A stretch of 64,000 nt of DNA. It comes from Acidobacteriota bacterium (lineage in GTDB: Bacteria > Acidobacteriota > Vicinamibacteria > Vicinamibacterales > SCN-69-37). The DNA lies in NCBI GenBank assembly GCA_020853395.1, contig JADYYY010000007.1, forward strand, positions 1 through 64,000. Reading direction: 5' to 3'. A program made the position numbers and the translations under genes. Below, one piece after another: positions 2 through 63,353 of this stretch (position 1 is its first letter; the number at the start of each line of letters is the position of its first letter). The notes under the pieces are model-generated. The model worked only from the letters and a program-made list of their open reading frames with translations, had not been told where the DNA came from and made no database searches.

Positions 2-75
2 TGGAGGCGCCGCCCGGAATTGAACCGGGGATGGAGGTTTTGCAGACCTCTGCCTTACCGCTTGGCGACGGCGCC
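2..75 (-). tRNA. tRNA-Cys (anticodon GCA)
   Basis: Read on the minus strand, the sequence folds as a full cloverleaf. A 7-bp acceptor stem begins GGCGCCG and is closed by CGGCGCC, followed by a U discriminator and an encoded CCA. The anticodon stem GAGGT/ACCTC encloses loop CTGCAAA, so the anticodon is GCA, decoding UGC/UGU. A GGTTCAATTCC T-arm is present. The gene lies 127 bases downstream of a tRNA-Gly on the same strand and may be co-transcribed with it; no tRNA-like fold was seen between them. Confidence 0.95.
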
Positions 76-202: not shown

Positions 203-277
203 TGGAGCGGGAAACGGGATTCGAACCCGCGACTTCGACCTTGGCAAGGTCGCACTCTACCACTGAGTTATTCCCGC
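203..277 (-). tRNA. tRNA-Gly (anticodon GCC)
   Basis: On the minus strand, acceptor stem GCGGGAA pairs with TTCCCGC, followed by U and an encoded CCA. The D-arm carries AGTGGTAGAGT, the anticodon stem CGACC/GGTCG encloses TTGCCAA (anticodon GCC), and the T-loop is GGTTCGAATCC. All cloverleaf parts are intact. It is the upstream member of a two-tRNA cluster with tRNA-Cys(GCA). The next coding gene upstream on this strand, yraN, ends about 50 bases away. Confidence 0.95.
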
Positions 278-820: not shown

Positions 821-2341
821 CTATTTTCTCGCTCGCGACTTCGGGGCTCTGGCCGTCGTCCGGCCGCTCCCACCTGCCGGGCGGGTGCGAGGACGACGCT
901 TGCGCCCAGAGCTAGCGGCGCCCGACTCTCGGCCGCCAGAGGGCTCGGCGCGATTGCCATCGACGTCGCCCGGCAACCGATCCTCGCTCGCCTCGTAGGG
1001 CGTGACGTCGATCTCGGGAAGCGACACGGCCTCTTCGATGTACGCGACGTCGAACACGGGGACGTCGATCTCCGTCACGACGACCCGCTCCACGATCTCC
1101 TGCTCCCGCGCTTCGGGCGCCTCTTCGGTTTCCACGTCGAACACCGCGGGTTCCGGCGTCGCCTCCTCCTGGGACGAGGGCACCGGCGTGCTGCCCTGGA
1201 ACACGCGGATGACCCCCTGCCGGTCGCGATCGACGCGCACGATGTTCTCGCGATGGGCGGCGCGCAGCAGATCGGTCAGGTTGGCGAACCCGTAGGAGCG
1301 TTCGTCGAACTCCGGGCTCGTCTGCCGGATGACCTGTTTGACGTTTCGCAAGTACATCGGCCACCGCCGGACGGCGGCGCGCGCAAGCAGATCACGGAAG
1401 GCGCGGAGGCCGTCCGCCGCCGTGCCGATCACCTCGGGCGGTGCCTGGCGTGAGCCAGCCTGCTCCGCCGCGGGCGCACCCGCGGCGAGCGGTGGGGCCG
1501 CTGCCGCCTCGCTCTCTTCGGCCGGCGCAGCGGCACGTTCGGCCGGCGGCTGCGGCGTTTGGACACCTTCCGCCAGCTCCACGAGCAGCCCGCCCTTGCC
1601 GTGGTGGACCTTCACGACGCCCACCTTCTCGAGCTTCTGGACGAAGTCACGGAACGAGCCCGCGCCGTAATTGCGCTCGGAGAAGGTCGAATCGAGCTGC
1701 AGCAACGTGCTCTTCAGCAGCCCCAACTGCGGCGACACCTCGCGCTCCGACAGCACTTTCAGCGCGCGGGACACCAGCGGGATCGCCTGTTCGATCGGCG
1801 ACCGTTCGACCCGCACTTCTCGCCCGCCGCCGTGCCGTCGATCCGCCGCCGGCTGGCTCACGCCGGAGCTGGCCAGCAGGTTCTCGTAGGCGACGAACTC
1901 GTGGCAGTTGCGCTGCATGATCACGCTCGTGAACTGCCGGCCGCCCACGATGAACACCTTCTTGTCGTACTGCTTCAGCTTCTCCACCAGGCTGATGAAG
2001 TCGCTGTCGCCGCCGACGATGACGAACGCGTTGATGTGCGGATGGGTGAACGCCATCTCGAGGGCATCGAGCGCCAGGTTGATGTCGGCGCCGTTCTTGT
2101 CGCCGCCGGGCGTCATGTTGCGCTGCACCATCCGGATGGCGTGCTGGGTCAGCGCGCGGCTGTAGCCGCCGGCCCGCTGCCAGTCGCTGTAGGCGGTCTT
2201 CGAGACGACCTCCCCACGTTCCTTCAGCGCCTCGAGCACCAGCCCGGCGTCGAACGAGGCGCCGAGCGTGTTCTTGACGCCAATCTCGATGTTGTCGAAA
2301 TCGATGAATACAGCTATGCGGAGACGGTCTGACTCAGCCAC
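821..2341 (-). CDS. NYN domain protein with two OST-HTH/LOTUS domains
   Basis: This 506-residue protein is probably a nucleic-acid-acting cytoplasmic factor. Residues about 7-156 form a NYN (PIN-like, DUF88/LabA) domain with its acidic residues visible: AVFIDFDN (D14, D16), GADINLALDAL, and GGDSDF (D112, D114). Two OST-HTH/LOTUS modules follow at about 183-255 and 311-382, each with the pattern of a helical bundle ending in a short strand pair (GSFRDFVQKLEKVGVV and ANLTDLLRAAHRENIV). An Ala/Pro/Glu-rich linker separates them and the C-terminus is Arg/Lys-rich. LOTUS domains bind RNA, including G-quadruplex RNA, and NYN domains are often RNases; the target here is unknown. I chose GTG at 2341 because AAGGA lies just upstream; a TTG at 2401 would add 20 residues. 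Confidence 0.85.
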   Translation of the reverse strand: MAESDRLRIAVFIDFDNIEIGVKNTLGASFDAGLVLEALKERGEVVSKTAYSDWQRAGGYSRALTQHAIRMVQRNMTPGGDKNGADINLALDALEMAFTHPHINAFVIVGGDSDFISLVEKLKQYDKKVFIVGGRQFTSVIMQRNCHEFVAYENLLASSGVSQPAADRRHGGGREVRVERSPIEQAIPLVSRALKVLSEREVSPQLGLLKSTLLQLDSTFSERNYGAGSFRDFVQKLEKVGVVKVHHGKGGLLVELAEGVQTPQPPAERAAAPAEESEAAAAPPLAAGAPAAEQAGSRQAPPEVIGTAADGLRAFRDLLARAAVRRWPMYLRNVKQVIRQTSPEFDERSYGFANLTDLLRAAHRENIVRVDRDRQGVIRVFQGSTPVPSSQEEATPEPAVFDVETEEAPEAREQEIVERVVVTEIDVPVFDVAYIEEAVSLPEIDVTPYEASEDRLPGDVDGNRAEPSGGRESGAASSGRKRRPRTRPAGGSGRTTARAPKSRARK

Positions 2342-2422
2342 GCGGTCCTTCTGGAATCCCGGCGGGAGCGAACGAGCCGGAGAGGTCGGTAAGTGCAGCA
2401 AGCACGGTCGGTTACGACAGTT

Positions 2423-2958: not shown

Positions 2959-5556
2959 ATGATCGGCGAAGTCGTCACCCATTACCGCATCGTCGATCGG
3001 ATCGGCGAAGGCGGCATGGGCGTCGTGTATCGGGCCGAAGACACGCGCCTCGGCCGGCAGGTCGCCGTCAAGTTCCTCTCCGAGAAGCTGCTCGCGGATC
3101 CGCTCGCGATCGAGCGGTTCCAGCGCGAAGCGCGCGCGGCCTCGTCGCTCAACCATCCGAACATCTGCGCCATCTACGACATCGGCAGCCACAACGGCCT
3201 GCCGTTCCTCGTGATGGAGCTGCTCTCGGGCACGACGCTGCGCCGGCGGGTCGCCACCGGACCGCTTCCGCTCGATCTGCTGCTCGATCTCGGCGCGCAA
3301 GCGGCCGACGCGTTGAGCGTGGCGCACGCGGCCGGCATCATCCACCGCGACATCAAGTCCGCGAACATCTTCGTCACCGAGCGGGGACAAATCAAGATCC
3401 TCGACTTCGGGCTCGCGAAGCTGGCGCGGACGCACACCACGGACCAGTTCGCCGCCACGACGCTCGTGCCGCCCGAGCCGCAAGCGACCGAGACCGGCCA
3501 GACGATCGGCACGCTCACGTGCATGTCGCCTGAGCAGGCCCGCGGCGACGACCTCGATCACCGTACCGATCTCTTCTCCTTCGGCGTGGTGCTGTACGAG
3601 ATGGCCACGGGCCGCGAACCCTTCTCGGGCAAGACGCCCGCGCTGATCTTCGACGCGATCCTGCGGCAGCACCCGACGCGTCCGACCGATGTCAACCCGA
3701 CGCTGCCGGCCGAGCTCGACCACATCATCTACAAGGCGCTGGAGAAGGATCGCGAGCTGCGCTACCAGACGGCGGCCGAGCTCCGCGCGGATCTCCGCCG
3801 CCTGAAGCGCGAGTCCGACGGCGCCCGTGCCTCGATCGGCCGGCCGGCGAGCGGGCCGTCGGCGACGGCCGGCGTCAGCCCGGCGGTGCCGACGCCGGCC
3901 GAGAACTTCGACGAGACGCATCTGGCGATGCCGGGCACGCCGGCCGCTGCGCCCGCGGCACGCGGCATCGCGTCCGGCGCGCCGCTACCCGCGCCGCCGG
4001 CATCCGGCCGGGCTGGCACCGGCCTCGACGCGCGTACGCCAGGCACGGGCGGCTGGCACGAACCGAGCGGCGCCGGCACCGCGACGCCGCCGGCCGCCGC
4101 GCGCCGATGGCTGCTCGGCGCCGTCTCGGCCGTCGTCGTGTTGACCGTCGCCGGCGTCCTCTACCTCGGCCGCGGCGTGACGGCCGCCGACTCGGTGGCG
4201 GTCCTGCCCTTCTCGGCGACCGGCGGCACGGCCGGCGACACCGAGTACCTGACGGACGGCATCACCGAAACGCTGATCAACGGCCTCGCGCAACTGCCCG
4301 ATCTGCGCGTGAGCGCCCGCAGCGTCGTGTTCCGCTACAAGGGCAAGAACGTGGACGCCCAGCAGGTCGGCCGGGAGCTGAACGTCAACACCGTGGTGAC
4401 CGGACACGTCACGGTGCGCGGCGATCGGCTGATCATCCAGTCGGAGCTCGTGAACGTCGCCGACGGCACGCAGCTCTGGGGCCAGCTCTACAACCGGCCG
4501 CAAGCCGATCTGCTCGCCGTGCAGGACGAGATCGCGCAGGAGATTCTCGACAAGGTGCAGCCGCGGCTGTCGGGCGAAGACCGCCGGCGCGTGACGAAGC
4601 GCTACACCGACAACGCCGACGCGTATCAGGCGTACCTGCAGGGGCGCTTCTTCTGGAACAAGGGCACGATCGACGGCTACAAGCAGTCGATCAACTACTA
4701 CCAGCAGGCGATCGGCCGCGATCCGAAGTACGCGCTCGCGTACACGGGCCTCGCCGACTCGTACCTCCTGCTGGGATCGTACTGGGTGGAGATGCTGCCG
4801 GAGGCCAAGAGCGCGGCACTCCAGGCGCTCGCCCTCGACGCTTCGCTCGCCGAGGCCCACGTCGCGCTGGGACACATCCGGCTGCTGCTCGACTGGGATT
4901 GGATCGCGGCCGACGCCGCGTTCACGCAGGGCCTCGCGCTCAACGGCAATTCCGCGCTCGCGCACAGCCAGTACGCGAAGTACCTCATGACCGTCGGCCG
5001 GACGGCCGACGCGGTCGCGGAAGGACGACGGGCGCTCGCGCTCGATCCGATGTCGCCGCTCGTGAACAGCGATCTCGGGTGGTACCTGCTGTTCGCCGGC
5101 GACACGGCGGAGGCGATCGCCCAGCTTCGAAAGACGCTCGACCTCGACGCGAACTCACTCGCCGCCCATCGCAGCCTGGGGCTCGCCTACAGCGAAGGCG
5201 GCCAGCACGGCGAGGCGATCGCCGAGCTGAAGCAGGCGCTCACGCTCTCGGAGAACAGCCCCGTGGTGCTCGGCTATCTGGGACTGGCCTACGCCCGCGC
5301 GCACGATCGCGCGCAGGCCGAGGGCGTGCTCCGCGATCTGGGCGCGCTTGCCGCGAGGACGTACGTCCCCTCGTCCGCCGTGGCGCTCGTCCACACCGGC
5401 CTCGGCGACAGCACGCGCGCCCTGGACGCGCTCGAAAAGGCCTACGAGGAACACGACTTCGGCATCACGCAGATCCGCACGGCGCCGTGGTATGGCGCGT
5501 TGAGAAACGATCCGCGCTTCACCGCGCTGCTCGCGAGGCTCGGCTTGAGCCAGTGA
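2959..5556 (+). CDS. Ser/Thr protein kinase with FlgO-like and TPR domains
   Basis: This 865-residue protein is a membrane-anchored Hanks-type kinase with a sensory or scaffolding C-terminus. The kinase domain (about 9-270) is intact: glycine loop GEGGMGVVY (16-24), ATP lysine K38 in VAVKF, catalytic loop HRDIKSAN (H129, D131, K133), DFG at 149-151 and a downstream MSPEQ element. A Pro/Ala-rich linker leads to one transmembrane helix near 383-404. Beyond it lies a domain beginning SVAVLPFSATGG that resembles the FlgO/TolB-like domain common in acidobacterial kinases, then roughly eight TPR-like repeats to the C-terminus. Topology predicts a cytoplasmic kinase and an exported TPR region. It stands alone, convergent with the PstS-like gene downstream. 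Confidence 0.93.
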   Translation: MIGEVVTHYRIVDRIGEGGMGVVYRAEDTRLGRQVAVKFLSEKLLADPLAIERFQREARAASSLNHPNICAIYDIGSHNGLPFLVMELLSGTTLRRRVATGPLPLDLLLDLGAQAADALSVAHAAGIIHRDIKSANIFVTERGQIKILDFGLAKLARTHTTDQFAATTLVPPEPQATETGQTIGTLTCMSPEQARGDDLDHRTDLFSFGVVLYEMATGREPFSGKTPALIFDAILRQHPTRPTDVNPTLPAELDHIIYKALEKDRELRYQTAAELRADLRRLKRESDGARASIGRPASGPSATAGVSPAVPTPAENFDETHLAMPGTPAAAPAARGIASGAPLPAPPASGRAGTGLDARTPGTGGWHEPSGAGTATPPAAARRWLLGAVSAVVVLTVAGVLYLGRGVTAADSVAVLPFSATGGTAGDTEYLTDGITETLINGLAQLPDLRVSARSVVFRYKGKNVDAQQVGRELNVNTVVTGHVTVRGDRLIIQSELVNVADGTQLWGQLYNRPQADLLAVQDEIAQEILDKVQPRLSGEDRRRVTKRYTDNADAYQAYLQGRFFWNKGTIDGYKQSINYYQQAIGRDPKYALAYTGLADSYLLLGSYWVEMLPEAKSAALQALALDASLAEAHVALGHIRLLLDWDWIAADAAFTQGLALNGNSALAHSQYAKYLMTVGRTADAVAEGRRALALDPMSPLVNSDLGWYLLFAGDTAEAIAQLRKTLDLDANSLAAHRSLGLAYSEGGQHGEAIAELKQALTLSENSPVVLGYLGLAYARAHDRAQAEGVLRDLGALAARTYVPSSAVALVHTGLGDSTRALDALEKAYEEHDFGITQIRTAPWYGALRNDPRFTALLARLGLSQ

Positions 5557-62612: not shown

Positions 62613-63353
62613 CTACATGTACATGCCACCGTTGACCGCGAGCACGTGCCCCGTAATATACGCCGCCTCGTCCGAGGCAAGGAACACCACGGCGGCCGCG
62701 ACCTCTTCGGGCGTGCCCAGCCGCCTCGCGGGAATCCGCGACGCCCAGTCGGCCTGGGCCGCGCCGGAGATCGCCTTCGTCATGTCGGTGTCGATCAGTC
62801 CCGGAGCGACCGCGTTCACGGTGATATTACGCGACGCGACCTCCTGCGCCATCGCCTTGGTCAGGCCGATCAGGCCGGCTTTCGACGCGGCGTAGTTCGC
62901 CTGTCCGGCATTGCCGGACTGCCCCACGACCGACGTCACGTTGACGATGCGCCCGTAGCGCTGCTTGACCATCGGCTTCAGGACGGCCTGCGAGCACGCG
63001 AACGCGGCCGTCAGGTTGGTCGCCAGCACCGCGTCCCAGTCGTCGCGCTTCATCCGCAGCATCAGTTGGTCGCGCGTGATGCCGGCGTTGTTGACGAGCA
63101 CGTCGATCCGTTCGTGCCGGCTCACGATGTCGGCCACCAGGCGGCCGACGGCGTCGTCGTCGGTCACGTCGAGCGCCGCCGCGTCGGCGAGGCCGCCGGC
63201 CTCGCCGATCTCGGCGGCCACGGCGGCCGCGTGATCGCCGCGCGCCGCGGCGATCACGCGCGCCCCGCGCGCGGCGAACGCCCGCGCGATCGCGCGGCCG
63301 ATCCCGCGAGAGGCGCCGGTGACCAGCGCCACGCGTCCCGTCATCGTGCCCAT
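62613..63353 (-). CDS. fabG: 3-oxoacyl-ACP reductase
   Basis: FabG reduces 3-oxoacyl-ACP with NADPH. The 246-residue short-chain dehydrogenase has the Rossmann motif VALVTGASRGIGRAIARAF, NNAG at the core and the catalytic Ser-Tyr-Lys triad in NVTSVVGQSGNAGQ and ANYAASKAG. It ends HVLAVNGGMYM, typical for FabG. ATG 63353 is the likely start (a GTG precedes it). It follows plsX by 50 bases and precedes acpP by 83. Confidence 0.97.
   Translation of the reverse strand: MGTMTGRVALVTGASRGIGRAIARAFAARGARVIAAARGDHAAAVAAEIGEAGGLADAAALDVTDDDAVGRLVADIVSRHERIDVLVNNAGITRDQLMLRMKRDDWDAVLATNLTAAFACSQAVLKPMVKQRYGRIVNVTSVVGQSGNAGQANYAASKAGLIGLTKAMAQEVASRNITVNAVAPGLIDTDMTKAISGAAQADWASRIPARRLGTPEEVAAAVVFLASDEAAYITGHVLAVNGGMYM

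Follow-up and report, generated by a model that had tools for sequence, protein, structure and literature searches.

The NYN-LOTUS gene and its product

The window analysed here, which comprises the first 64,000 nt of the forward strand of contig JADYYY010000007.1 (assembly GCA_020853395.1) from an acidobacterium of the Vicinamibacterales, carries close to its beginning a gene whose 506 amino acid (aa) product begins with a NYN nuclease domain, continues with two OST-HTH/LOTUS domains and ends in a charged tail (Table 1). The G+C content at the three codon positions of this open reading frame (ORF), 0.71/0.47/0.87, marks it as a typical real gene in this DNA, and the GTG start is supported both by the Shine-Dalgarno-like motif in front of it and by the homologues, the starts of which mostly align 0-2 residues away. 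The source genome (4.28 Mb, 99.9% complete) contains the gene in a single copy, and in a genome search its product was the sole NYN and the sole OST-HTH protein detected. No terminators were found around the gene (0 versus 1.3 expected), and no G-quadruplex motif was present on either strand within it.

Table 1 Features of the NYN-LOTUS locus, with positions in the window
Feature	Residues	Position	Strand	Basis or remark
Coding sequence, 506 aa		821..2341	(-)	GTG start at 2341, stop at 821-823
Shine-Dalgarno-like AGAAGGA		2346..2352	(-)	4 nt before GTG
NYN (LK/DUF88, PIN-like) nuclease domain	5-158	1868..2329	(-)	Pfam, genome search, alignment, structure
LOTUS1 / OST-HTH	181-260	1562..1801	(-)	Model, structure match, profile comparison; weak in Pfam
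LOTUS2 / OST-HTH	305-385	1187..1429	(-)	Pfam, profile comparison, model, structure match
Tail	386-506	824..1186	(-)	Net charge -20 in the acidic part, +12 in the basic C-terminal 30 residues
tRNA-Cys		2-75	(-)	Downstream of yraN and the NYN gene
tRNA-Gly		203-277	(-)	Downstream of yraN and the NYN gene

For comparison, 80 related loci were kept of 153 confirmed matches, and the window protein was aligned with those of 52 of them (alignment A1, 53 proteins); the incomplete or shortened L003, L006, L031, L042, L047, L057, L064 and L065 were omitted, as were others for redundancy, all by visual choice. A second alignment (A2) dropped L036, in which the second LOTUS domain ends out of frame.

The N-terminal domain matched the Pfam NYN family with an E-value of 4.1e-30 (105.7 bits, the cut-off being 24.2), and the cut-off of the NYN family TIGR00288 was not reached (25 bits vs 178.45). 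The nearest solved structure to the modelled domain, and also its best sequence match (E 3.9e-10), is 2qip (Z 16.0, root-mean-square deviation (rmsd) 3.6, 136 aligned positions), the VPA0982 protein of Vibrio parahaemolyticus, which differs from the window protein in that the solved chain of 165 residues is a NYN domain only; the NYN structures of MARF1 come next (5yaa, Z 13.8; 6fdl, Z 13.1). Six presumed active-site residues, D14, N17, D86, D92, D112 and D114, are identical in 53/53 aligned proteins. The alignment with 2qip puts D14, D86 and D112/D114 on the matching acidic motifs of that protein, and, judging from the sequence, D14, D86, D112 and D114 appear equivalent to the MARF1 aspartates. 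Among the aligned proteins the mean consensus is highest in the NYN domain (0.83), followed by LOTUS1 (0.69), LOTUS2 (0.54) and the tail (0.24).

Pfam recognized OST-HTH with an E-value of 1.1e-12 for the whole protein and in two stretches at a lax limit of E ≤ 1; because the first of these falls short of the Pfam cut-off when the genome is searched, independent tests of the two LOTUS domains were needed. The full-length AlphaFold2 model, built with the 53 aligned proteins, contains winged-helix units at residues 181-260 and 308-384, both with block-mean predicted local distance difference test (pLDDT) values of 92-97. Structures matching LOTUS1 include TDRD7 (3rco, Z 9.9, rmsd 2.1, 73 aligned positions), TDRD5 (3s93, Z 9.5) and the bacterial OST-HTH protein NE0665 of Nitrosomonas europaea (2kpm, Z 9.1), which has the LOTUS fold and matches LOTUS2 as well, the solved piece (105 residues) being a single domain, different from the tandem arrangement here; the DNA-binding winged helices of KAT6A (8h7a, Z 9.7) and SAMD1 (6lui, Z 9.6) match LOTUS1 equally well. 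Modelled alone, LOTUS2 reached a mean pLDDT of 91.7 and was again most similar to TDRD7 3rco (Foldseek probability 1.00, rmsd 2.8, 76 aligned positions) with a middling Z of 7.8; none of its structural matches reached Z 8, and unrelated winged helices scored almost as high. The assignment of LOTUS2 is supported by Pfam, by the profile similarity between LOTUS1 and LOTUS2 (E 5.2e-13) and by the presence of 3rco, 2kpm and 3s93 among the top structural matches. The Ghxph motif of the OST-HTH insert, as defined in PMC2848206, is present twice, as GAGSF in LOTUS1 and as GFANL in LOTUS2.

The C-terminal tail has pLDDT values mostly below 55 in the full-length model, according to which it is probably disordered. 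It is poorly conserved and nevertheless keeps its charge pattern: the last 30 residues have a net charge of at least +5 in 50/53 aligned proteins, and the preceding part one of -5 or lower in 39/53. Across the loci, a net charge of at least +5 in the last 30 residues was found in 70/76 family members and in only 13/178 other ORFs of the same loci, and the basic tail is therefore a real family feature. The family members in this comparison came from 76 of 81 loci (window included) and had at least 200 aa and a 3′ end inside the locus, whereas the control was limited to ORFs of at least 200 aa that end inside the locus and have a coding-like base composition.

A preliminary description, made from the sequence of the window, had proposed a NYN nuclease-fold protein with two LOTUS domains, the expected acidic residues and a basic tail. 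Its coordinates were exact; Pfam, model, structure and profile matches agree on the domains, the structure prediction that it had recommended returned the NYN fold and the two LOTUS winged-helix units, and both the invariance of the acidic residues and the charge of the tail bear it out. It had further implied that the combination is rare in bacteria, which is wrong; a bacterial family was described in 2010 (Anantharaman, Zhang and Aravind 2010, PMC2848206).

Relation to known NYN-LOTUS proteins

According to that study, bacterial OST-HTH domains are almost all single or duplicated copies fused to an LK-nuclease (DUF88) domain, and the genes, which are not consistently found beside other RNA systems and for which no linkage to CRISPR or RNA-dependent RNA polymerase (RdRP) genes was seen, were predicted to encode a stand-alone RNA-degrading enzyme (PMC2848206). 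The window protein has the features of this family, i.e. an N-terminal NYN/LK nuclease with its acidic residues, two C-terminal OST-HTH domains and Ghxph in both, and likewise lacks a conserved RNA-system neighbourhood. It differs in its long linkers and the charge-segregated tail, the latter being unmentioned in the available portions of PMC2848206. The architecture has been known in bacteria since then, and the tail feature is the sole departure from the family.

Human and mouse MARF1 (Limkain b1) share the NYN fold and LOTUS domains with the window protein, in which, however, a Pfam scan at E ≤ 1 revealed no RRM domain, a criterion of MARF1 proper. Arabidopsis DNE1 consists of a NYN domain and two LOTUS domains, and a G-rich motif lies near its cut sites (PMC10226599). 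DNE1 and the window protein have the same order and number of domains, NYN at the N-terminus and then two LOTUS, which is a likeness of layout. mRNA-decay enzymes of plants and animals thus share this architecture. Bacteria are not known to have a decapping partner such as that of DNE1. The literature searched, the coverage of which was incomplete, yielded no experiments on an entire bacterial NYN-LOTUS protein.

Distribution of the family

The proteins of the kept loci are 44-75% identical to the window protein. With the full-length query, matches were found in 29/40 relatives, and in 26/33 of those with a completeness of ≥90% and a contamination of ≤5%. A query restricted to NYN and LOTUS1 matched 146/297 genomes of the phylum at E ≤ 1e-3, of which 75 reached E ≤ 1e-30, the remainder being weaker and partly NYN-only. 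The Pfam OST-HTH search undercounts the family, since it misses several genomes (e.g., G016, G019, G030) despite their clear full-length matches. Non-acidobacterial record titles among the related loci name Deltaproteobacteria, Binatia and Methylomirabilota. Two further loci (L024, L071), titled 'Bifidobacterium breve' and 'Klebsiella pneumoniae', are from metagenome bins, but their NYN-LOTUS gene clusters with acidobacterial or myxococcal relatives, and the bins are probably mislabelled.

We also noticed in the phylum a class of shorter homologues (G113, G055, G087, G067, G041) with about 40% identity, whose ORFs of 277-312 aa suffice for a NYN and one LOTUS domain only. Shortened or out-of-frame NYN-LOTUS ORFs (L064, 312 aa; L065, 262 aa; L031; L036) may reflect assembly error or real decay.

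Genomic neighbourhood

In the window, yraN adjoins the NYN-LOTUS gene in the same direction at a distance of 109 bp, and in L005 and G003 it lies about 1.3 kb downstream. The preliminary description had drawn a connection from this adjacency and proposed a co-occurrence analysis, and here the counts went the other way. Only 1/80 related loci has yraN in its flank (downstream sequence extends for ≥2.5 kb in 57/81 loci, counting the window), and the 24 relatives with both genes, counting the genome of the window, have them on one contig in 7 cases and within 2 kb in 2. YraN is near-universal in the phylum (282/297 genomes), and the NYN gene was found in 138/282 yraN-positive and 8/15 yraN-negative genomes (Fisher p 0.80), and in the strict set (E ≤ 1e-30) in 69/282 and 6/15 (p 0.22); hence, there is no yraN-NYN association.

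A topoisomerase subunit A-like gene lies upstream on the same strand in 19/81 loci (L013, L015, L021, L022, L028 and L034 among them). In a tree of 53 rows, however, the 10 topoisomerase-linked rows all fall into one clade of 12 rows (3 label changes), which indicates inherited synteny, and in the genome of the window the two topoisomerase A-like genes lie on a different contig, so that this link was rejected. A gyrB/parE-like gene occurs near the NYN-LOTUS gene in five loci, and in 15/81 a gene read from its sequence as encoding a VWA-like protein lies downstream on the opposite strand. The remaining neighbours are variable, many of them singletons, and no constant partner gene emerged from the 81 loci. 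Likewise, mobile or defence-like genes did not stand out as recurrent partners, the neighbours not having been scanned against PADLOC. A link to the tRNA genes downstream (Table 1) was rejected as well, since 0/60 related loci scanned (60 of 80) contained a tRNA gene.

Proposed function

Our preferred reading, with a probability of about 0.75, is that the window protein belongs to the bacterial NYN(LK/DUF88)-OST-HTH family and acts as a stand-alone RNA endonuclease that depends on a metal ion. In the presence of Mn2+ or Mg2+, the NYN domain of MARF1 cleaves single-stranded RNA, and within its acidic patch (D358, D426, D427, D452) mutation of D426/D427 strongly lowers RNA cutting (PMC6294520). 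In the mechanism that we propose, the acidic pocket of the NYN domain (D14, D86, D112/D114) would hold Mg2+ or Mn2+ and the domain would cut single-stranded RNA as MARF1 does, while the LOTUS domains on their flexible linkers would select and bind RNA, with a probable preference for G-rich or structured regions, so that single-stranded RNA next to these reaches the nuclease; the basic C-terminus may bind RNA and contribute non-specific affinity. In the cell the protein most probably serves general mRNA turnover or quality control. The lack of a constant neighbour is expected of a stand-alone enzyme (PMC2848206). Of the RNA-processing or silencing-like activity suggested in the preliminary description, RNA cleavage or processing agrees with the published prediction and with the conserved active-site residues, whereas the silencing-like part finds no support, as no constant partner was found and the 2010 study saw no CRISPR or RdRP linkage (PMC2848206).

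Several observations weigh against this assignment. The equivalents of the MARF1 aspartates were matched via the sequence alignment with 2qip, and NYN residues from about 50 to 90 are modelled at low confidence. The gene is absent from 7/33 well-assembled relatives (e.g., G001, G026, G035) and is therefore dispensable. As for a G-rich preference, the DNE1 authors did not find a predicted G-quadruplex in DNE1 targets (PMC10226599).

An unlikely alternative is that the substrate is DNA or an RNA:DNA hybrid, as in flap or R-loop trimming, with the LOTUS domains acting as winged-helix DNA binders; the NYN/PIN superfamily takes in 5′-3′ nucleases (PMC2848206), LOTUS1 resembles KAT6A and SAMD1 as closely as LOTUS proteins, and the topoisomerase A-like gene recurs upstream, but the rows linked to the latter fall within one clade of the tree, the nearest NYN of known activity cuts RNA, and published LOTUS targets are RNA. 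That the protein is a nuclease-dead RNA-binding or ribonucleoprotein (RNP)-organising protein would be in keeping with the LOTUS domains of animal proteins that organise RNP granules (PMC2848206) and with the charge-segregated tail, which would suit condensate formation; this is quite improbable given the invariance of the acidic residues, which argues for selection on catalysis. More speculative and very doubtful is a combination in which nuclease, tandem LOTUS domains and the charge-segregated disordered tail would make up the core of a condensate for RNA decay in bacteria, with LOTUS domains and tail gathering G-rich transcripts for NYN cleavage, a prokaryotic forerunner of the MARF1/DNE1 granule systems.

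The PADLOC NYN/LabA-like model matched weakly (18.6 bits, E 2.4e-4), which might point to an anti-phage or toxin-type RNase switched on under attack, but the match is confined to residues 84-153, the last part of the NYN domain, the gene is single-copy with no recurrent defence-like partner noted in the neighbourhoods, and its strong sequence constraint is unlike that of an arms-race gene; we regard this role as highly improbable. Scarcely credible is a common pathway with the neighbouring YraN nuclease-fold protein, to which the close co-directional arrangement in the window would lend itself, in view of the linkage and co-occurrence counts on which the partnership was rejected. Replacement of RNase P by a protein-only enzyme was rejected too, since a bacterial RNase P RNA is encoded in the genome (251 bits).

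The question at stake is the role of the ancestral NYN-LOTUS RNase before its eukaryotic use in mRNA decay and germ granules. The well-conserved acidobacterial group, in which the presumed catalytic residues are invariant and the charged tail is kept, lends itself well to studying it.

Other features of the window

Positions 2959-5556 on the (+) strand hold a divergently oriented ORF of 865 aa, which from its translation looks like a serine/threonine kinase with repeats at the C-terminus. At 63177-63253, ARAGORN predicted a tRNA-Glu(CTC) that Rfam did not report at its gathering score and that is possibly a divergent or false tRNA.
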